DNA of 64,000 nt from Bremerella sp. TYQ1 (GTDB lineage: Bacteria; Planctomycetota; Planctomycetia; Pirellulales; Pirellulaceae), in contig NZ_CP083740.1 in assembly GCF_020150455.1 (NCBI RefSeq), positions 62,001-126,000 on the forward strand, given 5' to 3'. The notes below the pieces were generated by a model. It did no database searches and was not told where the DNA came from. It saw only the letters and a program-made list of their open reading frames with translations. Within the stretch, counting starts at the first letter, position 1. Every line of letters begins with the position of its first letter. Positions 1,397 to 43,726 of the stretch are shown in pieces. A program made the translations under genes and the position numbers.

Positions 1397-1810
1397 TTAA
1401 ATGAGAAGAGAAGCGAAAGCTAAGCGCAGGGAACGACCCGGGGTTATGCCCGTCGATCGCGTGCTCGCTAAATCGATGAGAGTTCGATTCTCAGCGACCT
1501 GCCATCGGTCCTGACTTGGAAAATAGGCCTCCCATACGGACGAAGACATATCATCCAAATCGACTTTCATCCCAACGATCGCGGACTGACTGCAAAAGCA
1601 GTCGCAGTCTGGACAGGAGTGCGTCGGGCTGTTCTCTGACGCTGGTGCAGTAGGTTCTAAGGCACAATGACTACAGCACGTGTCATGATGTGTCGCCAGG
1701 TTTTGATCTTCACTAAGAAGGGCGCGCATCGGCGTACATCCCTGCACTTCGCACAAGAGCGGGCAGAAGATAACGCGTAGCGCGATCAAAATAGTGAAGA
1801 AGTGGCTCAT
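1397..1810 (-). CDS. Small exported Cys/His-rich protein, efflux-associated
   Basis: This 137-residue protein has an N-terminal hydrophobic segment (FFTILIALRVIFCPLLC). A Cys/His cluster follows (HHDTCCSHC, then CPDCDCFC), and the protein ends in a hydrophobic ASLLI tail. I chose ATG at 1810 because it places the hydrophobic stretch at the N-terminus; a longer frame starts at 1930 but has no signal-like beginning. No strong ribosome site is visible. It lies 145 bases upstream of the adaptor gene on the same strand, so it is probably the first gene of that efflux operon. The family is not one I can name. The same architecture recurs at 2206, 8514, 32760 and 43250. A role in periplasmic metal binding is inferred from Cys/His content and context. 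Confidence 0.7.
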   Translation of the reverse strand: MSHFFTILIALRVIFCPLLCEVQGCTPMRALLSEDQNLATHHDTCCSHCALEPTAPASENSPTHSCPDCDCFCSQSAIVGMKVDLDDMSSSVWEAYFPSQDRWQVAENRTLIDLASTRSTGITPGRSLRLAFASLLI

Positions 1811-2205
1811 GCCAAGAGTATATCTAAAAAAAGAGTAAGGTTGCTCGATTGAATGATAGGTGACTGAGTGTCCTGTTTCAAGTCGAGTCAACAAAACCAA
1901 AAGAACTGAAGATGAATGCCGAGGCTTCAAGCCTAGCGTTATAAAGGAGTTAGGATACGTTAGAGCCTCACGCGTGTGGTCAAATACTATTGTCGAAGGA
2001 TCGGTGAAATCCCTCTCTGACTTTAAGACGACGTTTGCTACCCTAGCCCGGTAAGTAACATTGCTACCACGCGACGCTGTTTGTACTTAATTGAGCTGTT
2101 TTTTCAGAGCTTCACTTTTTGCGGCGGAAACTCTCCAGTCAATTCTGGTTCCGCGTCGATAAATCCGACAGGTCCGTTTGTAGCAGTTTTATTGGGATGA
2201 TTCTT
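1811..2205. other. Divergent intergenic region
   Basis: About 395 bases separate two divergently transcribed Cys-rich protein genes, so promoters for both must lie here. I see no convincing MerR-type dyad or strong -35/-10 pair. A 64-codon plus-strand frame (1860-2054) has low-complexity, non-family sequence and no ribosome site, and I regard it as non-coding. Confidence 0.5.
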
Positions 2206-2667
2206 ATGCCTCGCAGGGCGACAGCAATAATAGCACTTGTCGCAGTGATTGTTCACTGCGTCATTGGCTGCTGCGTTCGTTGCGTAAACGCTTGCGAGCT
2301 TGTCTACTTGGATGCATCTCATGCCAACTGCTGCACGTGTTGTGATGCGCACGCACGAAAGCGGGGTGTCGATCTATGTTGCCAACCAGCCACGAATTCT
2401 TCCTTGGCCGAAGAGACCACCGAGCACGGCGAACATGACTGCCTCGGATGTGGCAGCCATAAGTGCCCATTTATTTTGAGTGAGTCCCCTTCGATCGGCC
2501 TGAATGAGACTCTGCTTTCACCAGCGCGTCTCGATGGCTGGAATGCGTCCCTCACGTCGATAGCGATTCCATCTTCGCTCCATCGGCGAAGTCGTCGGTG
2601 CTTGGCGCTGCCGAACTCTCAGGGCGATCTGCGCCTCCATCTTTGCCTGGCTGTGCTCACACTTTAG
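2206..2667 (+). CDS. Small exported Cys-rich protein upstream of ABC transporter genes
   Basis: This 153-residue protein starts with a basic, hydrophobic signal-like segment (MPRRATAIIALVAVIVH) followed by GCC, then CCTCCDAH, LCC and a HDCLGCGSHKC stretch. It ends in a hydrophobic LHLCLAVLTL. The frame is open from 2119, but ATG at 2206, after a GGGA at about 8 bases, puts the signal at the N-terminus; ATG at 2197 is the alternative. The HxxxGCC start is shared with the protein at 8514. It is followed, 204 bases later, by a thioredoxin-fold protein and an ABC transporter pair on the same strand. The family is not recognised. Metal or thiol chemistry in the periplasm is an inference from Cys density. 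Confidence 0.68.
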   Translation: MPRRATAIIALVAVIVHCVIGCCVRCVNACELVYLDASHANCCTCCDAHARKRGVDLCCQPATNSSLAEETTEHGEHDCLGCGSHKCPFILSESPSIGLNETLLSPARLDGWNASLTSIAIPSSLHRRSRRCLALPNSQGDLRLHLCLAVLTL

Positions 2668-2871
2668 CAGGCTCTGCTGACTTAATCACCACAGCTTGCG
2701 ATTGAGGATCAGCACTCTCCGTTGAACGATGGCCAACCGCAACGTTTTAGTTGCTGTTTCCAATCGTTATTGCACAACGACCAAGAGCCATTGGAGCTAG
2801 ACGCCCATGCGCAGTCCTATTGGCAACCCACATCAAAACCATTGAAGCCAATTCATCAGAAAGAAATCGAG

Positions 2872-3660
2872 ATGAAGACCATCATCCATGTATGCCTGAC
2901 CATCGCTTGTTTGATTTCCATCCACAGCGGAACTAGCTTTGCCCAATCTTCTCAGGGAAATCTCAGCGCTACACTGCAACAAGCCCAGCAGGCCGGAAAG
3001 TTTACTTTCGTCGTTTTCTACCGAGATAATTCTCCGCAAACACAGAAAATGCTACAGGCCGTGCAGCAAACCGTGGCTAGTCGCGGCCAGCAGACCACGA
3101 TGGCCGCGGCGAGTGTGACGGCCCCTGAGGGGCAGGCAATGGCGGAGCAGTTCAACGTCAGCCGAGCCCCGATGCCGATTACCGTGGCCGTCGCTCCCAA
3201 CGGTGCCGTTACAGGATTGTTCCCCAGGCAGGTTGCCAATGCTAATCTCGACGCGGCCGTCGTGCCTCCCGTGATGATGGAGTGTATGAAGCAGTTGCAG
3301 GATCAAAAGCTCGTGTTCGTGTGCCTGACCCAATCAGAACAGGCTGCCGTTCCAGCCGGAGTACGCGCCCTTCAGTTAGACTCGCAATTCAAGGATCGCA
3401 TGGCACTGGTCGCCTTGAATGTCCAGAACACAGCCGAAGCGAGACTGATGCAGCAACTCAAGGTCGATGTAAACCAAGTTCAAGGTCCTTATGCCGCCCT
3501 GATTGCACCACCAGGCGTTCTTGTTGGCCACTTCAATGGTACGTCATCGGCCGATCAGATCGCCGCTGCAATCCACAAGGCTGGCCAGTGCTGTGAAGAT
3601 CCCAACTGCAAGCACTCCGCTTCAGCCCAGGCATCGCAGTCTACTCCCACACGCCGCTAA
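2872..3660 (+). CDS. Exported thioredoxin-fold-like protein without CxxC
   Basis: The product is 262 residues with a signal peptide (MKTIIHVCLTIACLISIHSG, probable cleavage after SFA). I chose ATG at 2872 for the signal peptide, although the frame is open from 2722. Two halves resemble thioredoxin-like units: each begins with a hydrophobic beta strand (KFTFVVFYRDNSPQTQKM near residue 43 and KLVFVCLTQSEQ near 144) and ends with a strand-turn such as PNGAVTGLF or PPGVLVGHF. The position where thioredoxins carry CxxC reads RDNSPQ, so it cannot be a classical oxidoreductase. The C-terminus carries CCEDPNCKH, a possible metal site. It precedes the ABC permease by 22 bases and is probably in the same operon, so it may bind or present the transported substrate. 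Confidence 0.75.
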   Translation: MKTIIHVCLTIACLISIHSGTSFAQSSQGNLSATLQQAQQAGKFTFVVFYRDNSPQTQKMLQAVQQTVASRGQQTTMAAASVTAPEGQAMAEQFNVSRAPMPITVAVAPNGAVTGLFPRQVANANLDAAVVPPVMMECMKQLQDQKLVFVCLTQSEQAAVPAGVRALQLDSQFKDRMALVALNVQNTAEARLMQQLKVDVNQVQGPYAALIAPPGVLVGHFNGTSSADQIAAAIHKAGQCCEDPNCKHSASAQASQSTPTRR

Positions 3661-3682
3661 GCTCATTAGATAGGGAAAAACG

Positions 3683-4909
3683 ATGAACCTTCGTTCTTTA
3701 ATCTGGCAAGAGTTGAAATCGCGGCCGACAACGGTCGCTTTCAACAGCCTGACAATACTCTTAGGGGTCGCTGCGTTAGTGGCGATCCGACACGTTACGG
3801 TTTATTCCGAAGAGGCGGTAGCGAACCAATTGACCAATTTGGGAGCCAATATCCTCGTGCTACCCAAGGAGGCGACCCTTCAAGATTACTATGCGGCCGA
3901 CCAAAATGGCGGCACACTTCCTGAGGAGTATGTGGCGGAAGTCTTTCTCTCCGGGTTATCCGGTATCGAGCAGGTTTCCCCGCGGTTAAACGTTACCACA
4001 GAACTTCATGGGCATTCGGTGGCAATTACGGGGATTCTTCCTCAGTCCGAGGTCGAGACGCTGGCAACTTGGCAGGCAACGACCTCGTTCATGAACCCGA
4101 CCGACTCTGGCTGTTGCCTCAAGGCGAACGTCGCGACAACCGACGATTTGAAGTCTCCCGAGGCCTTGGTCAAATATCGAGCGATCCAGAACCTCGATAC
4201 GCACGCGATCATCCTTGGAGCTGATATCGCCAAGAAGCTGAACTGCAACGTGGATGATCGCCTGAAGCTGATCGATGAAACGTTTACCGTGATCGGTGTC
4301 CTACCTGCCACGGGCACGGTGGATGATGGTCGGATCTTCGCCCACCTTCATTCGATCCAGCGAATCTGGAAGAAAGATTCCACTTGCAATGCGATCGAGA
4401 TTGTTGGCTGCTGTGAAGATGCAGCCGGTGGCCTGGTGCCGCAGCTTCGTGAGCTTCTGCCCGATGCTAAAGTCGTGACGATTTTACAGGTCGTCGAAAC
4501 CCAGGTTGGTGTCAACCAACTGATGGCCAAGACGTCGTGGATTGTTCTGGCCGTCTTAGTGATCGTCGGAGGCGTTGGTTTGGCTGGAGTTATCGCGGCA
4601 AACGTACGAGAACGTCGTCGCGAGATTGGTACGCTCATGGCCCTGGGTGCTACACCGAGTTACATCCAGAAACTATTTCTCGGCAAGGCACTAATTTTGG
4701 GTCTCGGAGCGGGAACGCTGGGATGCCTGATCGGAGTTGTGGCGGCCGTGATTGCTGGCCCCGTCTGGGCGGGCGTATCGATCAGCCCTTTGCTGGGCAC
4801 TTCGATGCTTTCCGTCCTGATTGCCACGTTCGTCGCAGTTATCGCAGCCTGGTGGCCTGCCCAAAAAGCTGCTCACCTCGATCCATGCATCTGTTTCCGG
4901 GAGGTTTAA
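3683..4909 (+). CDS. ABC transporter permease, MacB/LolC/FtsX-like
   Basis: A 408-residue inner-membrane protein with one N-terminal membrane segment near residues 20-40, a periplasmic domain of about 230 residues, and three C-terminal helices (about 285-310, 330-355 and 370-395). This is the FtsX/MacB-PCD arrangement. The cytoplasmic loop ANVRERRREIGTLMALGA is the conserved coupling motif of this family. An AGGG lies about 9 bases before the ATG. The periplasmic domain contains two unusual CC pairs (GCCLKAN and GCCEDA), echoing the CC of the preceding thioredoxin-like protein. MacB-like transporters act as mechanotransmitters that move substrates across the outer membrane or extract lipoproteins. 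The substrate here is unknown. The stop is 3 bases before the ATPase start. Confidence 0.9.
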   Translation: MNLRSLIWQELKSRPTTVAFNSLTILLGVAALVAIRHVTVYSEEAVANQLTNLGANILVLPKEATLQDYYAADQNGGTLPEEYVAEVFLSGLSGIEQVSPRLNVTTELHGHSVAITGILPQSEVETLATWQATTSFMNPTDSGCCLKANVATTDDLKSPEALVKYRAIQNLDTHAIILGADIAKKLNCNVDDRLKLIDETFTVIGVLPATGTVDDGRIFAHLHSIQRIWKKDSTCNAIEIVGCCEDAAGGLVPQLRELLPDAKVVTILQVVETQVGVNQLMAKTSWIVLAVLVIVGGVGLAGVIAANVRERRREIGTLMALGATPSYIQKLFLGKALILGLGAGTLGCLIGVVAAVIAGPVWAGVSISPLLGTSMLSVLIATFVAVIAAWWPAQKAAHLDPCICFREV

Positions 4910-4912
4910 CCC

Positions 4913-5620
4913 ATGATTCAACTTGAAACAATCAGTAAGGAGTACACGCGACGCGGTCAAGCGTTGACGGCGTTTCGTTGCGACAGCGTAAAAATCGAAA
5001 ATGGAGATTACGTAGCGATTGTTGGTCCGAGCGGGAGCGGAAAGACGACGCTGCTTTCGATGCTCGGAGGCATGCTTTCACCGACGACGGGTCGTGTGCT
5101 GGTCGACGATGTCTCGCTGTACGAGCAATCGGTAACGCAGCGCTCGGCGTTACGCGGTCAGAAGATGGGCTTTGTGTTCCAGAGCTTCAATCTGATCCCG
5201 TACCTGTCGGCACTACAAAATGTGCAGGTGTCACTGAGCTTTTCCGCGATGTCCGCGGAACTCCAGCAGGAACGGGCTACGCAACTGTTAACCCACCTAG
5301 GGCTAGAGGAACGACTCCACCACAAGCCTTCGGAATTGAGTGTCGGTCAGCAACAGCGTGTGGCTTTGGCACGAACCTTGGTAAACGATCCTCAAATTAT
5401 CTTGGCGGATGAACCGACCGGAAATCTCGATCCGATTAGCCGTGAGGTTGTCCTCAAGACGTTTGATGAATGTCATCAACAAGGCCGAACGTTGGTGGTA
5501 GTTACCCACGACCCCAGCGTTGCCCAGCGGGCAACGCGTCGTTTGACATTAGTCGATGGCGCTTTAGCGGAAAGTAGCGAAGCGTGGTCAATGCCGTCGC
5601 ATCGTGCTTCCGCCGCATAA
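4913..5620 (+). CDS. ABC transporter ATP-binding protein, MacB/LolD-like
   Basis: The protein has 235 residues. Walker A is GPSGSGKTT at 38-46, the Q-loop is near residue 90 (FVFQSFNLIPYL), the signature is LSVGQQQ at 142-148, Walker B is IILADEP at 162-168, and the switch His is H199. The order and the FQSFNLIP motif fit the LolD/MacB/FtsE branch. It starts 3 bases after the permease stop, so the two are translationally coupled and together form the transporter. The next gene is convergent. The energising role is certain; the substrate is not. Confidence 0.95.
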   Translation: MIQLETISKEYTRRGQALTAFRCDSVKIENGDYVAIVGPSGSGKTTLLSMLGGMLSPTTGRVLVDDVSLYEQSVTQRSALRGQKMGFVFQSFNLIPYLSALQNVQVSLSFSAMSAELQQERATQLLTHLGLEERLHHKPSELSVGQQQRVALARTLVNDPQIILADEPTGNLDPISREVVLKTFDECHQQGRTLVVVTHDPSVAQRATRRLTLVDGALAESSEAWSMPSHRASAA

Positions 5621-5675: not shown

Positions 5676-6128
5676 TCACGGCTGGAGAAATCGTTTGATT
5701 TCCGTAGTTAGTGCTCGCAGGTCGCCACCGTAACAGAACAAGCGATCTGCCTGACAAAACTCCTGATAGCCACGCGCTGCGGTTGCGGCATGGGCTGAGT
5801 AAAGCCAAAGGCCTCCTTGAAAACCATGCATCCTGAGCTTAAGAGAGACGAGAAACCCAGATTCATCTGGCATTTCGGCATTGATGAGAATCAGGCCAGG
5901 CTTGCGCTGACGCCAAGTAGGGACAACTGCCTCTGTCGAGTTCGCACGAGTAACCGAAATCTCTGGATTTTCAATCTCGCTGCGAATGGCTGCAAATACT
6001 TCATCGCGAAACTCGACCAGAAGAATCGCTATAGGAACAGATGCCAATGTATTCGGTTGACGAACACTTCGTTCTGTCGTGCCCATGCGGCGGTGGTGCA
6101 GAAACGAAAAATGAATATAGGGAAACAT
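5676..6128 (-). CDS. Receiver-like (pseudo-response regulator) protein
   Basis: The product has 150 residues. From about residue 30 it resembles a CheY-type receiver: ILLVEFRDEVFAAI, then KPGLILINAEMPDESG, then GLWLYSAHA and a C-terminal helix. The usual phospho-acceptor Asp (LLD-x-x-MP-x-x-x-G) reads Asn here (ILINAEMP), and the early acidic pair is E/D-shifted, so it probably cannot be phosphorylated. ATG at 6128 follows GAGAG by about 6 bases; ATG at 6086 is an alternative and gives a shorter N-terminus. No output domain is present. It is convergent with the ABC operon and lies downstream of the Cys-rich gene at 6223-6600, with a gap of about 94 bases. Its partner is unknown. Confidence 0.6.
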   Translation of the reverse strand: MFPYIHFSFLHHRRMGTTERSVRQPNTLASVPIAILLVEFRDEVFAAIRSEIENPEISVTRANSTEAVVPTWRQRKPGLILINAEMPDESGFLVSLKLRMHGFQGGLWLYSAHAATAARGYQEFCQADRLFCYGGDLRALTTEIKRFLQP

Positions 6129-6222
6129 AATGACTCTCGCGTAAATCCAATGCTGAGCGCATGGCAATTCTGGTGGATTACCAAGCGGTTAACAAAATCA
6201 ACGAAACTTGAATTCCGATTGA

Positions 6223-6600
6223 TTAAGTCAAAAATCGCGAGAGAGAGATGCAGCGATCTAGTGCATCAAGTGCGTTGTAATGGCAGGTATCAAGATCAAC
6301 CCCCCGGGGTCGGGCCAAGCATTCTTTTTTTGAATGCCAAACGTAGTGCCCCAGGAAGATATTCGGAGGACTCTCGTGCTGAATTCGATCAACTGGAGAC
6401 GAGATACCTGATTGACATGCACATTTGGATGGCTGGCTACCGGGAGCATTGTCACAACAGTTCCGCTCACAGGCGAGACACTGATTCCCTACTGACATGC
6501 CGGAAGGCATGCAGTGGCAAGTCGGTAAAAATGTCGCAAGCAGCAACATCCCAATTAGCCCGACGGCGGCTAATTTACGAATTTGCTTGCTCGATAGCAT
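6223..6600 (-). CDS. Small exported Cys-rich protein
   Basis: The product has 125 residues with a clear signal-like N-terminus (IRKLAAVGLIGMLLLATFLP). A Cys-rich stretch follows (CHCMPSGM, CLACERNCC, KCACQ). An AGGA lies about 9 bases before the ATG at 6600. It is divergent from the outer-membrane factor at 6837, so both may share control from the 236-base gap. The family is not recognised. The size, export signal and Cys clusters resemble the other small proteins of this window, but the C-terminal half is different. Periplasmic metal binding is an inference. Confidence 0.62.
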   Translation of the reverse strand: MLSSKQIRKLAAVGLIGMLLLATFLPTCHCMPSGMSVGNQCLACERNCCDNAPGSQPSKCACQSGISSPVDRIQHESPPNIFLGHYVWHSKKECLARPRGVDLDTCHYNALDALDRCISLSRFLT

Positions 6601-6836: not shown

Positions 6837-8366
6837 ATGAAAATCACGCAGGAAAGTCTTCGATGTCTGATCATGGCATCCCTGGGAGTTGTGAGCATAG
6901 CGGGCTGCCAAACGGGTGCGTCTCAGAATGCGATCCAACAGGAACGTGGACCAATTGCAACCGATGTCGCATCTTCAAGTGAATTGAAGGCATCACTGAC
7001 TTCTGTGCTCAATAATTCACCTGAAAGCTACCATACGGCATCACTTGAGAGGAATGGTGTGGAATTGGTCGATTTTCAATCCACCAATCTCCTTGAAACG
7101 GCCCATGTGACAAATGCAAGCGAGGCGATTCCAATACCTCAGGTGACAGAGGAGGCAATGACGCTAAAAGAGATTCAGGACTTGGCACTTGTTAACAATC
7201 CGTCGATTCGTGCCCTGTCAGCGTCAGCTGAGGCGGAGCAGGACTACCAATACCAGGTCGGCCGATCGGCAAACCCTGAAGTCGGGTATGCTGCGAATCA
7301 ACTTGCCGATCAGGGGACGGATCAGCACTTGGTGTACGTCCAACGAGAATTTGTTACTGGCGATAAGCTTGCATTAAATCAGAATATTTTGGGCCACTCC
7401 GTAGAAGCTCAACGCTGGGACGTGGAGTCGCAGCGGTATCGCGTACTAACCGACGTACGCATGAAATTTATCCAAGCATTGGTTGCGCAGCGACAAATGG
7501 AAATGATCGATGAATTTCATGCAGTCGTTTTTAGGGGGGTAGGTTTAGCAAGGCGACGTTTCAACGCTAAAGAGGCTGCTCGGGCGGATGTGTTGCAAGC
7601 AGAGATTCAGTTGAACGAAGTTGAGGTCTTGCGTCAGAAATCAGAATATCGATGGAAAGCAGCCTGGAAAGAAATGGCTGCCGTTGCAGGTATCGCCGAT
7701 TTACAACCGTCCAAGCTTGATGGGGAGTTGAGCGTGGCTCAAGCAGGGCCAAACTGGGAGGACGTTTACGCTACGCTCGCGATGGAGAGTCCTGAGATCC
7801 AGTCTGCATACAGCCGAATTCGACAAGCTCGATCCAATATGTCACGTCAGGAAATTCAAGCAATTCCTAATGTCACCGCGAACCTTCAGGCCGGTGTGGA
7901 TAATTCCACAGGCTCGGGGCTAATTCAATTGCAGGTTGGTGCTCCCATTCCCGTTTTCAATGACAATCGAGGGAATGTCTCTGCGGCATTTAACGAGTAC
8001 AGCCGTGCGACTCACGAGTTGAAACGAGTCGAAATGTCGCTCAAGGCGAGGCTCGCGCAGGTTTCTCAAGAATATGATTCAGCTAACTTTGCCGTCCAAC
8101 GTTTCGAGCAGCAGATTCTTCCGAAAGCACAAGAGACCCTTGACCTTGCCGAAAAGGCCTACGAGGCAGGTGAGTTCTCCTTCATCCAAACTCTAATTGC
8201 GAGAAGGACTTATTTCCATACTAACCTTAATTATCTGGATTCGTTAGGGAGTCTGGCCCAGTCACAGGCAAAAGTGGACGGTTTGCTTCTCACAGGCGCC
8301 TTGGATCAAACTAACACTTCGTCGCTGGGAGATGGATTGCGAGGGCAGACTTTCAGTCAGCAATAG
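6837..8366 (+). CDS. TolC-family outer-membrane efflux factor (CzcC/CusC-like)
   Basis: A 509-residue lipoprotein with a lipobox SIAGC (C24). The body has the duplicated TolC-family organisation of long helices and beta strands, for example TLKEIQDLALVNNPSIRAL near 110, a coiled-coil region with ARADVLQAEIQLNEVEVL, and a second half starting DVYATLAMESPEIQSA. It forms the outer-membrane exit duct of a tripartite pump. It heads a plus-strand run with an adaptor, an RND pump, a lipoprotein and a CDF exporter, so it is the C component of a CzcCBA-type system. The first 110 residues between lipobox and TolC domain are longer than usual and of unknown role. Confidence 0.92.
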   Translation: MKITQESLRCLIMASLGVVSIAGCQTGASQNAIQQERGPIATDVASSSELKASLTSVLNNSPESYHTASLERNGVELVDFQSTNLLETAHVTNASEAIPIPQVTEEAMTLKEIQDLALVNNPSIRALSASAEAEQDYQYQVGRSANPEVGYAANQLADQGTDQHLVYVQREFVTGDKLALNQNILGHSVEAQRWDVESQRYRVLTDVRMKFIQALVAQRQMEMIDEFHAVVFRGVGLARRRFNAKEAARADVLQAEIQLNEVEVLRQKSEYRWKAAWKEMAAVAGIADLQPSKLDGELSVAQAGPNWEDVYATLAMESPEIQSAYSRIRQARSNMSRQEIQAIPNVTANLQAGVDNSTGSGLIQLQVGAPIPVFNDNRGNVSAAFNEYSRATHELKRVEMSLKARLAQVSQEYDSANFAVQRFEQQILPKAQETLDLAEKAYEAGEFSFIQTLIARRTYFHTNLNYLDSLGSLAQSQAKVDGLLLTGALDQTNTSSLGDGLRGQTFSQQ

Positions 8367-8513
8367 TTCAACCATTTGGCTATGTTTTTTCTGAATGCAA
8401 CCGGAGTCGACTCAAATTGGAACTATAAAATCGCCCTACGGCGGCAATCGAGGTTGTCTGATTAGACTTTCTGGTGATAATATTGCTTAATAATCGAAAC
8501 GTGGGAGAAGTAG

Positions 8514-8960
8514 ATGTCGCTTTCAACAACCTTAATCACACTCTTGGTCATGCTATGGCATGCCATTGTGGGTTGTTGCGCTCATCATCCACATTCTTCG
8601 GTCTTTAGCGTAGGCGACAAATCCGAAGCGGATGTGGTTTCCGTGGAACATGTTTCGGCAACTCATGCGTGCTCACATCACCACGCTAAGAGTGCCCCGA
8701 GCCACGATACCGAAGATGGTGATCATCACTCGCATCCTAGTCCATGTAGCGATGTCGATTGTGTATTCTCGGCGACCAACTTGGATGGACATCTTGCGCT
8801 AAGCAAATCAATTAGTTCACAGCTTCATTTTGATTCCCGCTGCATCGTGGGGCTGAATGGAAACCTCAGTTCGAACGATGATTTTGCTCTTCCAAATCTA
8901 AGCTTAAGCTGGCGCGTAGCGCCCCCGGTCTATATCCAGTTTCAGAGCCTTCTTATCTAA
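8514..8960 (+). CDS. Small exported Cys/His-rich protein in Czc-type operon
   Basis: This 148-residue protein starts with a hydrophobic segment (TTLITLLVMLWHAIVGCC) followed by HHPH. A central His-rich stretch follows (CSHHHAKSAPSHDTEDGDHH), then PCSDVDC, and the C-terminus is QFQSLLI. The HxxxGCC start matches the protein at 2206 and the SLLI end matches the one at 1397. A GGGAG lies about 6 bases before ATG 8514. It sits between the outer-membrane factor and the adaptor of the same operon. The His content, also high in this operon's adaptor and lipoprotein, fits Zn/Co/Cd-like ions. Family unnamed; a binding role is inferred. Confidence 0.75.
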   Translation: MSLSTTLITLLVMLWHAIVGCCAHHPHSSVFSVGDKSEADVVSVEHVSATHACSHHHAKSAPSHDTEDGDHHSHPSPCSDVDCVFSATNLDGHLALSKSISSQLHFDSRCIVGLNGNLSSNDDFALPNLSLSWRVAPPVYIQFQSLLI

Positions 8961-9106
8961 TTCGCTCGATTCTTGCGTCCGCTGACGCTGCGAATTTCGT
9001 TGTTTGAGTGGATTGTTGGTCCGCATGGTCACTCCACCGCAAACCCTCTTTCGAATTGATTTAACATCCACGTAGTCCCTTGCTTGCTGCAAGGGGGGTA
9101 AGACAC

Positions 9107-10498: not shown

Positions 10499-10581
10499 TG
10501 TCAACGTTCAGGTTACTCATGCCTGAACCAGTTAGTGCTTGAAATGGTTACCAACGCTCAGTTTGCTTCGGAGTTTAGATC

Positions 10582-13785: not shown

Positions 13786-13885
13786 CTAGGAAGAACTAAT
13801 TCGCCTCGGATCGTTTCGAGTCAGCGATCGATTGGGGTTTCCGAATGGCTCATTCACATTTGTGTTTCTCAAAGGATTACTGAAA

Positions 13886-18903: not shown

Positions 18904-18968
18904 CGTTATCTCATTTCGATACTTATCTGGCCTGAACATCCTTACTCACATGCTAAAAGGCGGTGTTC

Positions 18969-30175: not shown

Positions 30176-30176
30176 C

Positions 30177-32216: not shown

Positions 32217-32349
32217 GATCAAATCCAATCGGCAAGGGGGAAGCAAGGGAGAGCGGCTGGACCGGAACAAGTCGCCAGCATTGGACCGCGCCAGGAACTG
32301 CCCCAGCCAGCCGCTCGTATTCACGTAGTTAAGCCTTGGTTAAACAACG

Positions 32350-32655
32350 TTACGAATGCTGGTGATCATGGTCACCATGGTCGTGGGCACCAGGATTGGG
32401 GTGCTCATCTGCTTCCGCAAGCTTGGTTGCCTTGTCTTCTTCCGAAAGAGCTTCCCACTTGGGCTTGCAGCCGGGGCAGCAAAACCCAACGGCCTTGCCG
32501 TTCCACTCGGCACGCCCGCCGTCGGCCGCGACTTTGCCACCCATGATGGGGCAGTACTGGTTCACGGTTTGGGCCGTGTCAGGGGTGTCTCCGGAGGATT
32601 GATTGCAGCCCAAGAGCAAAACGGTCGCGCAAAGCGACAACAATAGATAACGCAT
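32350..32655 (-). CDS. Small lipoprotein with CPI/CCxxC metal module and His tail
   Basis: The product has 101 residues with a lipobox LLLGC (C17). The core is YCPIMGGKVA (C35) and GFCCPGC (C59, C60, C63), a YHS-like module also found at 37127 and at the end of the adaptor at 41130. The C-terminal 17 residues are His/Asp-rich (HDHGDHDHQHS). AGGA lies 8 bases before the ATG. It is located between the Cys-rich protein and the adaptor gene in one operon. It is probably a periplasmic metal chaperone or sponge; this is inferred. Confidence 0.82.
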   Translation of the reverse strand: MRYLLLSLCATVLLLGCNQSSGDTPDTAQTVNQYCPIMGGKVAADGGRAEWNGKAVGFCCPGCKPKWEALSEEDKATKLAEADEHPNPGAHDHGDHDHQHS

Positions 32656-32759: not shown

Positions 32760-33227
32760 TTACGTCAGCCAAACACAGAGAACCGTCTGCTTCTCAGCCG
32801 CTAAGGCCAATGCAGGACGGTCGGTCTTAGGAAAAAGGGTCGTTCGACAGCAGACGGCTTCGTACTCGCAAGTCACGGTCGCCAAGTGCAGGTCAGCCAG
32901 GTCATGAAACTCCAACGTCGACGAGACCGGCAGAGGCTGTTCTTGGACGGGACTTGAAAGATGGCAACTGCACCCTGTTGAGGTGTGAACCCCGTCATCA
33001 CGCGACGGATCAGGATCTGGAGTCGAGGAAGAGCCGGATCGGCAGTGGGAGCAACTCGACGGTACCCCGTCTTTCGTCCGTGGATTATGGCAACAACACT
33101 GCGTCAGACAGGCCGATGCCGATGTCATCGAACAGCGACACTGGCCAGCGTGAGCGAAACAGACCGACTGCGTCAGCATCATCAATGCTGCGAAAAAGAC
33201 GGCCAAATTGCTCACAAATGAGATCAC
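32760..33227 (-). CDS. Small exported Cys-rich protein, first gene of Cus-like operon
   Basis: The product has 155 residues from GTG 33227, which has a GAGG 8 bases upstream and starts a clean signal peptide (ISFVSNLAVFFAALMML). An ATG at 33260 exists but lies before or at the predicted transcription start of the promoter at 33261-33289, so I reject it. Cys motifs are GQCRCSM, ACLTQCCCHNP, SCSHC and GCSCHLS. The family is not recognised, but it has the same role position as the proteins at 1397, 8514 and 43250. It is divergent from the MerR gene. Periplasmic metal binding is inferred. Confidence 0.72.
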   Translation of the reverse strand: MISFVSNLAVFFAALMMLTQSVCFAHAGQCRCSMTSASACLTQCCCHNPRTKDGVPSSCSHCRSGSSSTPDPDPSRDDGVHTSTGCSCHLSSPVQEQPLPVSSTLEFHDLADLHLATVTCEYEAVCCRTTLFPKTDRPALALAAEKQTVLCVWLT

Positions 33228-33260
33228 TTCGGTTTCCTCTAGCCCAGTGGGGATATTCAA

Positions 33261-34555: not shown

Positions 34556-34570
34556 AAGTGGCTTGAATTG

Positions 34571-36994: not shown

Positions 36995-37126
36995 TGTTCT
37001 ACCCTTCGAGATGTTGCGTGTTTTACTACTAGATACGCGATGAACTATCCATTTCATTCGCTAGATGCCGTACTTCACCTCGCTAATCACAAGGATGTTG
37101 CGAGGTGAATTGTACGACTTAGGAAT

Positions 37127-37573
37127 TTACTTCTGGCGAGCACGAAGTGATGCCAGGTAGAGTTCGTCGAGCTTCTTCAGATAAGCTTTTGGATCTTTGG
37201 CGATCTTCTCCGTGCACGGAGGACAACAGACATAGAAGATTTGACCTTCTACGATTGTCCATTTTGCCTTGGGCGACAGCTTGTTTTCCATCACGGGGCA
37301 AATACCTTGGGCCTCGGCGAAGTTGTTGTGAATGGTTGCCCAGTGTTCCGGTTTGACTTGTTGCTGCAAGCAACCTTTGCAGCACACGTAGATAAGCTCT
37401 TCACCGACTTTCACCTTAATCGGTGTTCCCATCGAACCAAGCTTTTGGCCGGAGATCGGGCAGATATCCTGCACCGCGATGTGGATCTTATCATGTTCCG
37501 ACAGCTCTTGTGCCTGTGCGGAAACGGCTGACGAGGTAACCAGTAATACGGCGATCATGATTAACGTTTTCAT
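37127..37573 (-). CDS. Exported protein with two CPx/CCxxC (YHS-like) modules
   Basis: The product has 148 residues from ATG 37573, after AGGA at about 9 bases; the preceding TTG in frame is not needed. The signal peptide ends near SAQA. Two tandem modules of about 50 residues each contain ICPISGQKL...YVCCKGC and ICPVMENKL...YVCCPPC. Each is a CP-x(25-30)-CCxxC pattern, resembling half a YHS domain. It lies 50 bases after the RND stop in the same operon and probably binds metals in the periplasm, as a chaperone for the pump. No known family name. Confidence 0.78.
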   Translation of the reverse strand: MKTLIMIAVLLVTSSAVSAQAQELSEHDKIHIAVQDICPISGQKLGSMGTPIKVKVGEELIYVCCKGCLQQQVKPEHWATIHNNFAEAQGICPVMENKLSPKAKWTIVEGQIFYVCCPPCTEKIAKDPKAYLKKLDELYLASLRARQK

Positions 37574-37623
37574 CAAAGCTTTTCCTTTCTAACTAGCGAC
37601 AATTTGCATACGACCGCAATCCG

Positions 37624-40600
37624 TTAGGCAGCCGTTGCATGAGGAGCCAATTCTTCGGACTCCTCTTCTTCCAAAGACATTTCAAGCAGCGAGTCACTGA
37701 GGCCCGCCCTCAACTTGAGTTCCAAATACCAGCAATAAATCGTGGGCACCACGAAGGTTGTAAAGGGTTCGATCATCATGCCACCGAAGACCGGTAAAGC
37801 CATTGCTTTGGCGACGTCTGCTCCTCGGCCTGTCGAAAGCAAGACAGGGATCAACGCAACGATCGTCGTGACCGTAGTCATTACGCAGGGACGAATGCGT
37901 TTGAGGCCAGCCTGGTAAATCTCTTCGCGCAGATCCTCGACGCTAGTAATCGTGCGTCGTTTCAAACGGTCGTGAATGTAGCTGGCCATCACGATACCGT
38001 CGTCCGCGGCGAGGCCTGCCAGGGCAATGAAGCCTACCCACACGGCGGTGTTCAGTTCGACATTCATGACCGCGAGCGCAATCATCCCTCCAGCGCAGGC
38101 AATGGGAATCCCGGAAAACACCACCAGCGAGATCGGCAGATTGCGAAAGTGCAGGTAATGCAGCAGCAAGTTAATCAGAAACACCGCCGGAATGATCCAC
38201 ATCAGGCGATAATTGGCCTCGATCTGATTCTGAAAGGAGCCCACTGCCTGGAGTTCAAAGTTGCCATCGGGAAACACTAGCTTCCCCGATTCACGGGCAT
38301 CGCGTAGTGAATGCATGACCGAATCGACCGTTTCCAGGTCGCCTGCGACGCCGGAAGGGGTAAACATGACGTGGGCAACCAGACGCGAGTCTTCGCTATT
38401 GATCATGCCAGGTCCCCACGTGGTGGAAACTTTCGCTAATCTTTCCAGCGGAACTACGTCTTTTGTTTGCGTTACGATCGATGTCCTGGGAAGTTCGCCC
38501 ATGTTCTCGCGGACTTCTCGATTGAAGCGGACTTGAATCGGATATCGTTCTCGCCCTTCGACGGTGGTCGTCACGTCGAGCCCACCCAGTCCAGCCGCGA
38601 CGATCTGATTGACCATCATCGTGGTCATCCCGTAACGGGCAGCTTCTTCACGATCGACCTCAAACTCGTAATAAGGTTTCCCCATGACGATGTCGGGATT
38701 GACCGTGCCTGCGTTCACGAGGTGATGTTTCTTCAACTCTTCGGCAACGGCCACCGATGCTTCAGACAGCCCTTCTAGGGAATCCCCGTAGATACGAACG
38801 GCCATCGATGCTTTGATGCCGGATTGCAGCATCACGATACGGCCTTCAATGGGCTGCAGTGGTGAAGCTGGCGTAACGCCAGGAAGCGTTGCGGCCTCGT
38901 TGATTTGATCCCAGATCTCGCGTTCTGTGATTCCTTCGCGCCATTGGCTACGTGGTTTCAGCATGACGTAGGTTTCAATCATCGCGGCAGGAGCTGGATC
39001 GAGAGCAGATTCGACGCGACCAATTTTTCCCATCACGTGGGCAACTTCCGGAATCTCTTTGATCAGGACATCTTGCGATTGCAGAATCTCCATGACCTGA
39101 TTGAATCCGGCCGCAGGATACAAGCTGGGCATGTAGAACCAGCTTCCTTCGTCCAAGGCGATCCAGTCGTCGGACTTGAGGCCTTGGAAGGTGTGCTTCG
39201 CATCGACGTATCCGGGAACCTCATTGAGGTCCGCACCGACGAGTGATACCAACTTTTCAAACGGACGAAGTACGGTCGGCAGTCCAATCCAGGCACCAAG
39301 GCCCAGAATGAAAATCACCAGCGGAAAAAGCAGCATAACTCCCTTGTGATGAAGGGCCATTCGCAAACGTCCGGCGTACAGAAATATCACGAATCGGCTG
39401 GCAGGGTTGTCTTCCATGGGCCGCAGTTGTTCACGGCTCATCCACCAGCCAATCGCCGCACCAGTTAGCCCTAGTGCGATCGTGACGAGCATACTCGGTA
39501 CACCAAGGAGTTCAGCCAGATGCTCACTCCATAGAAGTTGACCGAGAAGCATGCTGATACCGGCCAACCCTATCGCAGCTGTCATAGACCGCCAGGTGAG
39601 CTTGGGAGCATTGTGCAAAAAGATTCGGGCAAGTACCGGGACGACCGTCACGGCGACAATCAAGCTGGCTGCCAAAGCGAACGTTTTCGTCCAGGCCAAC
39701 GGAGCAAACAGCTTGTAGTCTCTGCCGGTGAGAAAGAAGACGGGCAGAAAGCTCACGATCGTCGTACTGACGGCCGTAAGAACTGCCGGTATGACCTCGC
39801 TGGCCGATTCCTGTATGACGCGTAATCGTTGACGTGGTCCGCCTGGGGCTCCCTTCGCTTCCCATTCGGCAAGGGCATCGTAGATGTTTTCCAAGACGAT
39901 AATCCCCATGTCGACCATTGTGCCGATCGCGATCGCAATTCCCGCGAGCGACATGATATTTGCATCGACGTGAAACCACTTCATCGCCGCGAAGGACATG
40001 AGCACAGCCATTGGCAAGGTAATCGCAATGATCAGGCTCGACCGGACGTTGAGTAGAAAAAGAACCACCACGGCAATCGTGATGAGAATTTCATGACTCA
40101 ATGCGTCGGTGAGCGTAGCAACTGTTTCATCAATCAGTTGCGTACGATCGTAGATGCCGAGGATTTTGATTCCGCCCAGTTCGCTTTCCAAGGAAGCGAT
40201 CTTCGATTTGATGCGCTGAATAACTTCGCGAGGATTCTCGCCGTAACGCATGACGACGACGCCACCCACGGTCTCACGGCCGTTCAGGTCGATAGCACCT
40301 CGCCGAAAGGAAGGGCCTACCTGAACTTGAGCAAGATCGCGAACGCGGACCGGTATCCCGTCGCGAGTCTGAATAACGGTATTCTCGATTTGCTCAATCG
40401 TTTCCGGCTCAGTCTTGCCGGCACCGATGAATCCACGTCCGCGGACAATGAACTCCATCCCAGACGTCTCGACCGTCTTTGCACCGACATCGATATTCGA
40501 GGCCTTCACCGCGTCGATAACGAGGCTCAAAGGAATGTCATGGAAACGCAATTGGTCGGGATCAACTTCAACCTGGTACTGCTTGAGGTAGCCACCGATC

Positions 40601-41133
40601 GAGGCAACTTCCGCGACACCATCGACCGACTGCAACGCGTATTTCAGGAAGAAGTCTTGCTTGGAACGTAGCTCGGCCAAGTCCATTTCGGGTGGACCTT
40701 CCAGCACGTAGTAGTAGATTTGCCCCAATGCGGTCGCGTCCGGTCCGAGGCTCGGAGTCACGCCTTCAGGCAGTTGATTGCCGAGGGCCGTAAGCTGTTC
40801 GGCGACACGCGATCGAGCCCAGTAGAAATCGACGCCATCGTCGAACGTCACCTGGACAAAGCTGAAGCCAAACATGCTTTTTCCGCGGACACTTTTCGAT
40901 CCTGGCACGGCTTGCAGCCCGATCGATAGCGGGTAGGTAATTTGGTCTTCGATGTCCTTGGGGGACCGTCCTGGCCATTCGGTCAGGACAATGACCTGGT
41001 TCTCGCCAACGTTGGGAATCGCATCGAGGGGAACCTTGTAGGTGCAGTACCAGCCAAAGGCGGCCAGGGACACCGCGGTCAGTAAAACGAGTAAACGTTC
41101 TTTCAGGCAGAATTGAAGGAGACTTTGAATCAT
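37624..41133 (-). CDS. cusA: CusA-like heavy-metal RND efflux pump with extra membrane helices (second copy)
   Basis: The product has 1169 residues from ATG 41133, overlapping the adaptor stop by 4 bases (ATGA) with GGAGG 8 bases upstream. It is a clear paralogue of the pump at 26711: the same AIGTMVDMGIIVLEN motif in TM4 near residue 400 and the same inserted helices between TM6 and TM7 (MTAAIGLAGISMLLGQLLW and MLVTIALGLTGAAIGWW). Identity looks about 60 percent by eye over the N-terminal half. CusA-type pumps export Cu+/Ag+. It probably duplicated together with its adaptor gene and then diverged. Confidence 0.93.
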   Translation of the reverse strand: MIQSLLQFCLKERLLVLLTAVSLAAFGWYCTYKVPLDAIPNVGENQVIVLTEWPGRSPKDIEDQITYPLSIGLQAVPGSKSVRGKSMFGFSFVQVTFDDGVDFYWARSRVAEQLTALGNQLPEGVTPSLGPDATALGQIYYYVLEGPPEMDLAELRSKQDFFLKYALQSVDGVAEVASIGGYLKQYQVEVDPDQLRFHDIPLSLVIDAVKASNIDVGAKTVETSGMEFIVRGRGFIGAGKTEPETIEQIENTVIQTRDGIPVRVRDLAQVQVGPSFRRGAIDLNGRETVGGVVVMRYGENPREVIQRIKSKIASLESELGGIKILGIYDRTQLIDETVATLTDALSHEILITIAVVVLFLLNVRSSLIIAITLPMAVLMSFAAMKWFHVDANIMSLAGIAIAIGTMVDMGIIVLENIYDALAEWEAKGAPGGPRQRLRVIQESASEVIPAVLTAVSTTIVSFLPVFFLTGRDYKLFAPLAWTKTFALAASLIVAVTVVPVLARIFLHNAPKLTWRSMTAAIGLAGISMLLGQLLWSEHLAELLGVPSMLVTIALGLTGAAIGWWMSREQLRPMEDNPASRFVIFLYAGRLRMALHHKGVMLLFPLVIFILGLGAWIGLPTVLRPFEKLVSLVGADLNEVPGYVDAKHTFQGLKSDDWIALDEGSWFYMPSLYPAAGFNQVMEILQSQDVLIKEIPEVAHVMGKIGRVESALDPAPAAMIETYVMLKPRSQWREGITEREIWDQINEAATLPGVTPASPLQPIEGRIVMLQSGIKASMAVRIYGDSLEGLSEASVAVAEELKKHHLVNAGTVNPDIVMGKPYYEFEVDREEAARYGMTTMMVNQIVAAGLGGLDVTTTVEGRERYPIQVRFNREVRENMGELPRTSIVTQTKDVVPLERLAKVSTTWGPGMINSEDSRLVAHVMFTPSGVAGDLETVDSVMHSLRDARESGKLVFPDGNFELQAVGSFQNQIEANYRLMWIIPAVFLINLLLHYLHFRNLPISLVVFSGIPIACAGGMIALAVMNVELNTAVWVGFIALAGLAADDGIVMASYIHDRLKRRTITSVEDLREEIYQAGLKRIRPCVMTTVTTIVALIPVLLSTGRGADVAKAMALPVFGGMMIEPFTTFVVPTIYCWYLELKLRAGLSDSLLEMSLEEEESEELAPHATAA

Positions 41134-43061
41134 CGGACGACCTCCACGGGCTGAATTACAGGGGTCGCGATCGATGGAGTTGTCGGCCCATCGCTTTCAA
41201 CAGGAACGGCTACCGTGTTAGGTGGTAGTTCAGGAACAAGGGGAATCTCTTGAATGGGGCCGATCGGCGGCAAGTCAGGTGCGCTCTCTGATTGGGTTCC
41301 GCTATCTTTGTTGTCGAGGACCGCGAGATACTTCTCAGGCTCTTTCATCAGTGAACCGCGACATCCCTCGCAGCATAGGAACACCGTACGGCCGTTTACT
41401 TCGGCCTTAGGTGGTGTGCCCATCGAACCCAAGGCCATCTCGGTAACTGGGCAAATCTGCTGGGCGCTGGCCAACGTCATTTCTTCCGGCGGCAACTTTT
41501 CGAGAGCAGCCAGCATCTCAGGTGACAATTCTTCAGCTTCCGGAGCGACATACTTCTCTGGGTTGATCAGGGAAGGGTTCCCTGCGAGCTGCATCTGAGA
41601 ATCGATTAGGAAGTTTCCCTTGATGGCTACCTTCTCGCCAGGGTTGATCCCATCGTGGATCGCAATCTGGTCTCCACTTTGATGACCTAAAACGACTCGC
41701 CGAATCTCAAATCGTCCTGGCTCTGTTTCCACGTAGACAACGCTATGTTTACCAGCCATCAAAACCGCACTTCGAGGCACGGATACGGATTGGGTTTCAT
41801 CTTGCGGTTGGTCAGCAAACCCAAAATGGGATGCATGGACGAGTTCGAGATTGCTGATGGGGCACTTGCCAGGCTGGTCGAAGATTTGATTCGGAAACCG
41901 TGGGCTGATCCACTTGTTGGCCAACTGCTGATCGTATCTGCGCAACTGTGGACCGGCTGCCGCGGGAATGCGAAGAAAGGCTGTCGCGAAGTCGCCAACT
42001 TTGAGAAGGCCTTCTTCATTCGGTAGGGCGACACGAACGCCGATCGTCCGCGTACGTTCGTTGACATTTGGATCAATAAACGCCACCCTTCCCGTGAACT
42101 TCTTTCCTGGGTGGGATTGAACCTCGGCTTCGACCTTCTCACCGTATCCGATGCAGGCAGCGTCTTCAGGGAAGAGTTCGAGCATAAGCCATACTGTGGA
42201 AAGGTCCGCCAGTTGGTAAATCGGATCGCTGGCCTTCACGTATTGGCCTTCGACCGCCATCTTCTGGATGACCGTACCACTCATTGGGGAATTTAGATGC
42301 AACCGGCTATCTGCCTTGCCATTACCTTCCAAGTCAGTAATTTGAGCTTCCGTCATTCCCAATTCGATCAGCTGTTGTCGCGCGTTCTCGAAAAGGTTTC
42401 GATTGGCACTTGCAACGCTCGGCAATACTCCGGGAGATGCTTGTACAACGGATTTTTTGGCCAGTAAGTATTCGACCTGTGCCGAATACAGGTCCGGCGA
42501 ATAGAGCAACGCCAGCGGCTCGCCTTGCTCGACGACAACGCCGGTGAAGTCTGCGTAAAGGCGATCCAATCGTCCGCCCACATACGCAGAGATGGTCTTG
42601 AGCGAGGCTTCGTCATATTTCAGCTTGCCAATTGCACGGACGTTCCGCGTCATGGGCTGCATGGTGGCTTCGGTCGTCTGAATGTTAGCGATACGTCGAG
42701 CGGCCGACCCGATCTGAATCGAATGCGAGTCCCCGCCAGAACCACCTGACGACGCCACGACAAGTTCCATCGCACAAACGGGACAACGGCCTGGCTGCGA
42801 CGACGGAGGCGTACACATCATTGGGCAGATGTATTCTGCCCCGGCCTGTGCCGAGGCAGAAGCTGCGTCTCCACCTATGGCGCCACTCGAGATCAGTCCA
42901 AATCGCTGCATAAGTCCCAGGCCCGCGAACAGTAACGTCCCGCAGACAAGGAAGATAACTGGCTTGATGAATAGTCCTACCAGCCACCGACGATCGAAGG
43001 CTTGTCTTGTTTCCTTCGGATTCTCGGGTGCCTGCTCAACGGGCTCTGGAGACTCACTCAT
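41130..43061 (-). CDS. CusB-like RND adaptor with one intact and one decayed metal-binding domain and a YHS-like tail
   Basis: The product has 643 residues from ATG 43061, with AGGACATTTCTC upstream. A membrane anchor lies near 30-52. The first heavy-metal-binding domain is near 77-103 (YICPMMCTPP and CPVCAMEL, with HP replaced). The second, near 377-405, has lost its ligands (SPRFPNQ and GKCPISNLELV instead of SPMHPQ and CPICGM). The adaptor core is intact. The tail (about 535-570) has a CPx/CCxxC module (ICPVTEMALGSM...FLCCEGC) found also at 37127 and 32350. The C-terminus is Pro-rich. It is coupled to the pump by a 4-base overlap. Confidence 0.92.
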   Translation of the reverse strand: MSESPEPVEQAPENPKETRQAFDRRWLVGLFIKPVIFLVCGTLLFAGLGLMQRFGLISSGAIGGDAASASAQAGAEYICPMMCTPPSSQPGRCPVCAMELVVASSGGSGGDSHSIQIGSAARRIANIQTTEATMQPMTRNVRAIGKLKYDEASLKTISAYVGGRLDRLYADFTGVVVEQGEPLALLYSPDLYSAQVEYLLAKKSVVQASPGVLPSVASANRNLFENARQQLIELGMTEAQITDLEGNGKADSRLHLNSPMSGTVIQKMAVEGQYVKASDPIYQLADLSTVWLMLELFPEDAACIGYGEKVEAEVQSHPGKKFTGRVAFIDPNVNERTRTIGVRVALPNEEGLLKVGDFATAFLRIPAAAGPQLRRYDQQLANKWISPRFPNQIFDQPGKCPISNLELVHASHFGFADQPQDETQSVSVPRSAVLMAGKHSVVYVETEPGRFEIRRVVLGHQSGDQIAIHDGINPGEKVAIKGNFLIDSQMQLAGNPSLINPEKYVAPEAEELSPEMLAALEKLPPEEMTLASAQQICPVTEMALGSMGTPPKAEVNGRTVFLCCEGCRGSLMKEPEKYLAVLDNKDSGTQSESAPDLPPIGPIQEIPLVPELPPNTVAVPVESDGPTTPSIATPVIQPVEVVR

Positions 43062-43249
43062 GAGAAATGTCCTGTGTGGAATGATGAATGCGCGCAGTCG
43101 TGATGCGACATAGCTCACTGGTATGGACTCGATCATCAGCCGCAAAACGTCTTCCTGACGCAGGAGTACGCGGCCTTATACACGCGAAGTCGTTCGCATG
43201 ATCGACAGGAATTAACACATGCGCATCAAGGTGCGCATGGATTGGCTAC

Positions 43250-43726
43250 CTAGAGTGTGTAGCGACAGAGAGTGGAACAACGATCGATTGACAGAGACTG
43301 GATCGCTTCCGATTGAAGTTGCACGCGTTGTTGCGGGCACTTAATTTCAGGAGCCGTATCGAGCGAATTAGGGGTCAAGGCGAGTGAAGCGATATCAGAT
43401 CGTGCATCCGAATCACGGGATGGAGCTGCAGGGATATCGGAAGGCTTGCCTTCGCCGCAGGGACATCCAATGCCACACTCACACTTTGACTGCGACACGC
43501 CGGATTTCTGACAACATGTGCCGGTCGTCTCTGACTTATGGCAGCAACAGCTGTGCTGCTGGCGATGTTCCAAGCTACAGCAGCAACAACAATCTAGTCG
43601 CCCGCCGTTGCAGGCAGTGCCATCACTTGCACATACCGATCCATTGAGCACAAGTCCTTGCAGGGGCAAGGCCAGGATTAAAGTCCAGATCCAGACTTTA
43701 GTCGCATTGTGCGTAATGAATGACAC
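43250..43726 (-). CDS. Small exported Cys-rich protein, first gene of second Cus-like operon
   Basis: The product has 158 residues from GTG 43726, preceded by GAGTG at about 10 bases. An N-terminal signal-like segment (VWIWTLILALPLQGLVL) is followed by an extreme Cys stretch (LDCCCCCSLEHRQQHSCCCH, then TCCQKSG, KCECGIGCPCGEG). The C-terminal 70 residues are ordinary. It lies 188 bases upstream of the adaptor and is divergent from the outer-membrane factor at 44076. Same position in the operon as the protein at 32760. Cys density is close to metallothionein-like proteins, but it is exported. Function inferred only. Confidence 0.72.
   Translation of the reverse strand: MSFITHNATKVWIWTLILALPLQGLVLNGSVCASDGTACNGGRLDCCCCCSLEHRQQHSCCCHKSETTGTCCQKSGVSQSKCECGIGCPCGEGKPSDIPAAPSRDSDARSDIASLALTPNSLDTAPEIKCPQQRVQLQSEAIQSLSIDRCSTLCRYTL

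Follow-up and report, generated by a model that had tools for sequence, protein, structure and literature searches.

Six small Cys/His-rich proteins encoded in the window

The window analysed here is a stretch of 64,000 nucleotides (bases 62001-126000) from the genome of Bremerella sp. TYQ1, a single contig of 6.66 Mb. Relatives of the proteins encoded in it, where named, include Bremerella, Blastopirellula and Thalassoglobus, that is, planctomycetes. The window contains six small open reading frames (ORFs) whose products are rich in Cys (6-19 each) and His (4-15 each); we refer to them as leaders and name them by their coordinates. An original prediction, made from the DNA letters, had described them as one fast-evolving family of periplasmic metal binders or sensors, perhaps forming an accessory of metal pumps. 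All six ORFs were found in place, and so were the H-x3-GCC motif of leaders 2206 (HCVIGCC) and 8514 (HAIVGCC) and the SLLI end common to leaders 1397 and 8514. The features that unite these proteins are a conserved ending directly at the stop codon and a nearly fixed distance from this stop to the last Cys pair.

Leader 1397 (1397..1810, minus strand, 137 residues) heads a CusB-CusA unit that runs past the left edge of the window. The CusB-type adaptor starts 145 nucleotides after the leader, and only a part of it (1..1251, minus strand; HlyD_D23, 553 residues in locus L293) lies within the window, while its end and CusA fall outside. We therefore rejected the idea that leader 1397 is an orphan without a pump, since its CusB is cut by the window edge. 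Leader 2206 (2206..2667, plus strand) has 153 residues if read from the ATG at 2206, with another in-frame ATG at 2197, and is followed by a gene without family assignment (2722-3660), an FtsX/MacB permease (3683-4909) and an ABC ATPase (4913-5620). Leader 6223 (6223..6600, minus strand, 125 residues) heads a response-regulator receiver gene (5676-6167). Leader 8514 (8514..8960, plus strand, 148 residues) is located between CusC (6837-8366) and CusB (9080-10498); CusA (10582-13785), a gene at 13832-14410 and a CDF gene (14460-15374) follow. Leader 32760 (32760..33260, minus strand) encodes 166 residues from a TTG or 155 from a later in-frame start and precedes a weakly TRASH-like gene (32350-32655), CusB (30177-32324) and CusA (26711-30220). 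Finally, leader 43250 (43250..43726, minus strand, 158 residues) stands before CusB (41130-43145), CusA (37624-41133), a TRASH protein (37127-37576) and a P-type ATPase (34571-37057). The pump genes of the window belong to the Pfam families OEP, HlyD_D23, ACR_tran, FtsX/MacB, ABC_tran, E1-E2 ATPase and Cation_efflux.

The predicted tie to particular gene sets was thus seen, in a stricter form than the proposed location at the head of, inside or divergent to transport operons: all six leaders lie directly upstream of their neighbours and on the same strand. Five of them precede efflux genes as expected, but leader 6223 precedes a regulatory gene. Likewise, the expectation that nearly every efflux unit has such a companion holds for four of the five RND units touching the window, but not for the fifth (51816-58723; HlyD_D23, ACR_tran). 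This unit encodes a CusB-like protein of 890 residues with HMBD and DUF3347 and a CusA-like protein of 1406 residues; it is without a Cys-rich leader, and the gene preceding it (51052-51606) has no Cys.

The leaders belong to several sequence families

Relatives were collected in four alignments: A1 (8514 and 2206 types, 24 rows), A2 (1397 type, 11 rows), A3 (32760 type, 8 rows) and A4 (43250 type with 6223, 8 rows). Removal of redundancy before counting reduced 238 sequences to 169 members, 100 in group A, 17 in group B (with leader 1397), 30 in group C (with leader 32760) and 22 in group D (with leader 43250). Each of the six leaders has a full-length relative elsewhere in the genus, in one further genome (G005) or more. 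Leader 6223 has only one close orthologue, in G005, and leader 32760 shares 87% identity with its G005 orthologue and 26-31% with six others. Members were found in at least 31 of 392 genomes for group A, at least 10 of 221 for group B, and at least 7 of 392 each for groups C and D, all of these being lower bounds with 9 or 18 candidates scored per genome.

By whole sequence, only leaders 2206 and 8514 hold together, and leaders 1397, 32760 and 43250 are each distinct. A hidden Markov model (HMM) built from the 8514-type rows alone recovers leader 2206 (E 7e-8), so these two are not divergent from each other, as had been stated for all six. With an HMM from the 2206-type rows alone, further members of group A are recovered (L173, E 2e-8); leader 8514 is not among them at E up to 1. 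We take both types as one family, group A, with H-x3-GCC as its N-terminal mark. Groups C and D show a distant likeness (hhalign 94%, using the larger alignment A5), and an HMM from the 43250 type alone reaches group C members at E of about 1e-6. The HMM from relatives of 43250 does not list leader 6223 at E up to 1; therefore, 6223 is placed with group D mainly through its ending. For the remaining pairs of groups tested, likeness was limited to the signal and the Cys-rich part, or there was none. A single whole-length family for all six was therefore rejected: whole-protein profiles do not unite them, whereas ending and spacing do.

No family of Pfam or NCBIfam matched any of the six leaders above cut-off, so they are indeed unnamed. 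Searches of protein databases returned 49, 30 and 12 relatives; none carries a Pfam domain, and where a source name is given, the protein is called hypothetical, uncharacterized or secreted. Searches of open-licence papers led to CruR, CutF, RAPP-type and Sec-monitoring arrest peptides, but to no account of the planctomycete leaders. In agreement with the signal-like N-terminus noted before, 167 of the 169 members have a strongly hydrophobic stretch at the N-terminus, and 79 of the 100 group A members have a lipobox-like site. Two group B leaders, one in locus L306 and one in L180 (8370-8780), from the genome pair G121 and G351, are identical in their C-terminal 26 residues, perhaps as the result of a recent transfer.

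Leaders precede efflux genes in many planctomycete genomes

We studied the neighbourhood of 95 members in 80 loci and the window, with 261 genes in 20 random loci as controls. Genes were called by a crude longest-ORF rule, and neighbours were annotated through similarity to the Pfam-checked pump genes of the window. An efflux gene was found within three same-strand downstream genes for 83 of the 95 members and for 5 of the 261 controls, which is the association that the original prediction had asked to be measured. The first downstream gene was an efflux gene in 72 of 95 cases if unnamed genes like 2722-3660 and 32350-32655 are counted, and in 56 of 95 if they are not (controls 2/261 either way); the count within three genes stays the same under both rules. 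The gap from leader to the next possible start has a median of 119 nucleotides (n=89). Some members follow CusC inside an operon and are thus not always the first gene. No family member was found in the 20 control loci. Overall, the picture of fast-evolving, exported, Cys/His-rich proteins recurring at efflux operons of many planctomycetes was borne out.

Twelve members had no efflux gene within three downstream genes. One of these is cut by the window edge and one (L180, at 1509) by the edge of its locus. Three precede a response-regulator gene (leader 6223 and members in L171 and L173), and the other seven, all from group B (L186, L224, L226-L230), stand before a longer operon. In L226, this operon encodes MacB_PCD/FtsX and HlyD_D23 proteins according to Pfam, and in L224, L226, L227, L228 and L229 its fourth gene encodes an ABC ATPase according to phmmer; the operons of L186 and L230 were assigned from the gene pattern alone.

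The ending is conserved and anchored at the stop codon

Conservation in the leaders is highest over the final ~12 residues, which run right up to the stop codon. In the window, these are RSLRLAFASLLI in leader 1397 (1400..1435, minus strand), LRLHLCLAVLTL in 2206 (2629..2664, plus strand), LDRCISLSRFLT in 6223 (6226..6261, minus strand), PPVYIQFQSLLI in 8514 (8922..8957, plus strand), AEKQTVLCVWLT in 32760 (32763..32798, minus strand) and IDRCSTLCRYTL in 43250 (43253..43288, minus strand). The endings can be written as RLHLxxxVLxL, GRxxRxxxxSLLI, FRQIVLCVWLT and DRCxSLCRFTL, each directly before the stop, and their likeness extends across families. We aligned the 169 members gap-free from the stop codon. 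Relative entropy was 0.8-5.7 bits at positions -1 to -12, with at least 1.4 bits in 42 of 48 group-positions, and conservation dropped to the level of the remaining tail at about -14 to -20. In alignment A3, LCVWLT is invariant in all eight rows at a mean column identity of 48%. All 30 database matches of group C end in LCVWL[TA], and all 12 of group D in [DN]RCxxLxR plus 2-3 residues, both sets having been found with profiles that contained the ending.

The relation between the endings was evaluated against 1138 other C-termini. A profile of group A endings placed 17/17 group B, 24/24 group C and 16/18 group D endings above the 99th percentile, and the area under the curve (AUC) was at least 0.93 in 19 of 23 train/test pairs across groups. 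Furthermore, 6860 small ORFs outside the families were scanned with ending profiles and with Cys and hydropathy filters. This gave six clear new proteins with scores of 13.2-20.6, the next score being 7.9 (loci L241, L242, L243, L244, L246 and L220). In five cases, the next gene is CusB or CusC. The sixth ORF (L246, 12769-13155), which shares bases with another called ORF, is followed by a gene resembling that at 47129-47680 of the window. None came from the control loci, a weak result since these make up about a quarter of the DNA scanned, and eight of the lower-scoring candidates did lie there. In L241 (6994-8075), L243 (7009-8182) and L244 (6434-7589) two leaders stand in tandem before CusB, the group D type first, and the second ends in LCRWLT, LCRWLI or LCSWLI, as if two sensors were arranged in series.

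A pattern search of genome contigs for LCVWLT followed by a stop returned six stretches, two true members and four short unrelated frames; it gave no sign of this ending outside the planctomycetes in contigs from which near relatives of the window were possibly left out. Synonymous codons vary within the ending, and therefore selection acts on the peptide. TGA is rare among the stop codons of the leaders (10/95) compared to genes of more than 300 residues (198/616) and annotated neighbours (86/311).

The last Cys pair lies at a fixed distance from the stop codon

A Cys pair is found 60-72 residues ahead of the stop, counted from the end of the pair, in 165 of the 169 members, and the sequence of the tail in between is divergent. 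The mean distances, with standard deviations (SD) in brackets, are 65.5 (1.95) in group A, 65.6 (1.24) in B, 68.9 (1.83) in C and 68.2 (1.53) in D. In the window, the codon of the last putative sensor Cys is located at 1592-1594 (minus strand, 65 residues from the end) in leader 1397, 2464-2466 (plus, 67) in 2206, 6415-6417 (minus, 64) in 6223, 8760-8762 (plus, 66) in 8514, 32964-32966 (minus, 68) in 32760 and 43457-43459 (minus, 69) in 43250. The six proteins found by their ending have the Cys pair at 68, 61, 68, 68, 68 and 64 residues from the stop. A later search for group B gave 12 rows, of which L295, L299 and L305 are repeats of known members; the nine newly found loci all have it at 63-67, L303 with an extra Cys pair at 43.

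With a strict measure of the spacing, 152 of 168 members (the one member without a Cys pair beyond residue 25 from the stop being omitted) were in range, compared to 12 of 84 other Cys-rich called genes, three of which resemble leaders of yet another type, located before CusC. A Cys-rich small protein type directly before CusC is encoded in L177 (9110-9550), L180 (9149-9574) and L186 (9496-9924); it has CPxC 62-64 residues from the stop and ends in G[VM]R[LI]QV or GHLQV.

Groups A, B and D have few Cys from about -13 to -58 (no more than 0.05 per residue in 5-residue bins), and group C has a recurrent single Cys near -30. The N-terminal side is less constant. From an N-terminal Cys motif to the Cys pair, the SDs for groups A-D are 7.2, 12.3, 3.5 and 20.9 (n 78, 16, 30 and 22; group B includes a pattern outlier, range 10-68), compared to 2.1, 1.1, 1.8 and 1.5 for the distance to the stop. 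Measured from the first Cys, they are 16.7, 4.2, 13.2 and 21.6.

Comparison with known nascent-chain sensors

Sensing of metal by a nascent chain is already known from CruR and CutF, members of one Pfam family (DUF2946, PF11162) with Pro-based endings. According to the excerpts of the cited papers on which all statements of this kind rest here, a few DUF2946 genes have been noted in Planctomycetes, and in CruR the CXXC motif, the RAPP motif and the spacing between them matter, with a distance of 45 residues conserved to one or two residues (PMC9426467); arrest by CruR was observed in vitro (PMC12992588). CutF senses periplasmic Cu during its export and needs its signal, Cys motif and ending (PMC9973294). 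The leaders resemble these proteins in small size, N-terminal signal, location at the head of metal operons, a Cys pair, a conserved ending and fixed spacing. In contrast, their ending is made of hydrophobic residues, Cys, Trp and Arg, lies flush with the stop and is not RAPP-like. RAPP or RGPP occurs within the last 20 residues in 1 of 169 members and PP within the last 12 in 4 of 169; leader 8514 has PP at -12/-11. The distance also differs: the leaders have ~66 residues from Cys pair to stop, DUF2946 proteins ~47 between CxxC and the final Pro of RAPP/RGPP.

True DUF2946 genes were found over cut-off in 19 of 198 genomes of the class (L267-L286) and not in this one, where no DUF2946 match was obtained at E 0.01 (G000). 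Of the 20 fetched, 18 were readable; each of these closes with R[AG]PP and a tail whose length varies. The seven tails measured have 43-44 residues from CxxC to R[AG]PP and ~47 to the last Pro. A scan of the six leaders with PF11162 gave no match up to E 10, although the filters of HMMER drop most weak hits. In hhalign comparisons with DUF2946 members of the class, groups B, C and D reached 0.2-2.2% and group A 82%, the latter confined to the signal and the His/Cys part. What appears to be new in the planctomycete leaders, judged from their sequences, is thus a different ending, a different spacing and different families.

The leaders also resemble the arrest peptides preceding secA or secDF, which have an N-terminal signal and a conserved C-terminus ending at the stop upstream of a regulated gene, but consist of other residues, and the excerpted description mentions no Cys sensor. 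Secretion-coupled arrest peptides are recognized by a small ORF ahead of the gene under regulation, a signal at the N-terminus, conservation of the C-terminus and a spacer of more than 30 residues, and upstream ORFs of the NSP-stop and NAP-stop types arrest with the stop codon in the A site, according to the excerpts (PMC10987492). Every one of these features that can be read from sequence is found in the leaders. By description only, they can further be compared to CzcI of Cupriavidus metallidurans, a small periplasmic protein encoded ahead of czcCBA that is counted among the CutF-like proteins lacking a Pro motif (PMC9973294) and is described as a quencher of Czc activity (PMC9045368).

Elsewhere in the window, two large Peptidase_C14 (caspase) proteins are encoded next to each other (15466-21101), with an ECF sigma factor nearby at 22187.

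A possible function in metal sensing during translation

We consider it probable that the leaders are regulatory ORFs and that metal is sensed outside the membrane by their Sec-targeted product while it is still nascent, its C-terminus not yet having left the ribosome. An arrest of the ribosome at the leader stop is suggested by the sequences and by analogy. We favour such a sensor over a pump subunit because of the stop-anchored motif and the fixed Cys-to-stop distance. Furthermore, the leaders precede RND, MacB-like ABC and response-regulator genes and therefore have no common partner protein, which argues against the accessory of a tripartite pump that had been proposed.

In this mechanism, the ending would contact the exit tunnel and thereby slow or arrest translation once the stop codon has entered the A site; an arrest of the NSP-stop/NAP-stop kind would explain why the endings are flush with the stop. 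The 66-residue spacer would set the last Cys pair just outside SecYEG at the pause, because an extended chain of ~50 residues already bridges the way from the peptidyl transferase centre to the SecYEG exit on the periplasmic side (excerpt of PMC7513700). If metal is not in excess, export, folding or disulfide formation may pull on the chain and end the pause; disulfide-stabilised periplasmic folding is described as pulling on an arrest peptide (PMC7513700, excerpt). Metal bound to thiols and His would block or delay this pull, so that the ribosome would stay paused and the pump genes downstream would be expressed, either because Rho is kept off or because the next ribosome-binding site is opened. 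The step in which metal prevents the pull, including its sign, is speculation, and the sign has been guessed from the analogous CutF and TnaC. We can only tentatively propose the full version, which may well be wrong in some part: a planctomycete class of sensors working only as nascent chains, with an ending that arrests at the stop codon, a ~66-residue ruler matching tunnel plus translocon, a Cys pair at the periplasmic mouth where metal competes with disulfide formation, an origin in, or a spread over, at least four families, both RND and ABC exporters as targets, and tandem sensors in some operons.

The leaders might instead be stable periplasmic metal binders or pump chaperones that stand in for CusF and dock their C-terminus to the adaptor. 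In E. coli, the gene for CusF lies between CusC and CusB, and the leaders share this place in many loci (the order CusC - protein - CusB - CusA is common, as at 6837-13785 of the window); the signal-like N-terminus, the richness in Cys and His and the lipobox-like site of group A would fit as well. However, the downstream genes include others than those of CusF loci, with the same kind of ending before RND, ABC and response-regulator genes, and neither a CusF domain nor any other Pfam domain was found above cut-off in the six leaders. AlphaFold models, based on shallow alignments and with no fold search run, had no confident fold: mean predicted local distance difference test scores were 59.2 for leader 32760 and 57.6 for 8514, with a signal helix, a short C-terminal helix and mostly disorder in between, 32760 adding two short strands. 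A docking tail would also not be expected to keep the length of a spacer without its sequence, and we regard this explanation as unlikely. Still less likely, the free C-terminus could be a recognition tag for a PDZ-type protease or for sorting, and the leaders short-lived exported metal reporters acting in trans. This would leave the Cys-to-stop distance unexplained, and the conservation spans 12-14 residues, PDZ ligands being shorter. It would nevertheless agree with endings that are flush with the stop and often of the form hydrophobic-x-hydrophobic-COOH, and with the rapid degradation of CutF once exported (excerpt of PMC9973294). That the leaders are unrelated exported Cys-rich proteins, alike in composition and brought together in a metal island, is very improbable: the failure of whole-length profile comparison to unite all groups would be accounted for, but endings, spacing and the immediate upstream position recur across many genomes relative to controls.

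Several observations weigh against sensing by the nascent chain. The CutF ending grafted alone did not stall (PMC9973294, excerpt), and the leader ending matched none of the tested arrest motifs that we encountered. The likeness of endings across families was weak in 4 of the 23 pairs (AUC 0.80-0.90; D to B 0.80), all trained on C or D, and the members are related, so that the counts are not independent. Given its lipobox-like site, group A may possibly be a stable lipoprotein. The ending over-uses some codons (CGC, TCT, also CTT/GTT), so that it may have a role at the nucleotide level. Folding of the intergenic RNA after the stop exceeds control only weakly (mean z for the groups -0.76 to -1.59, control -0.73, p 0.007), and no shared stem-loop was found in the leader intergenic regions; we therefore set aside conserved RNA structure as support, a weak general excess being all that was seen. 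Pyrimidines make up 0.572 of the 90 nucleotides after the stop compared to 0.506 in unmatched controls, and they are enriched before the stop too (95 leaders, window and L167-L246), but G is not depleted (0.254 vs 0.237). A Rho-type region after the leader stop is suggestive only.

If the leaders do act as nascent-chain sensors, they would be a second set, apparently unrelated to DUF2946, and metal control by nascent chains would have evolved more than once. The contrast between ~47 and ~66 residues would then be a testable measure of where sensing takes place, at the ribosome/translocon or in the periplasm. Such a function would also account for many of the unannotated Cys-rich genes before planctomycete efflux operons.

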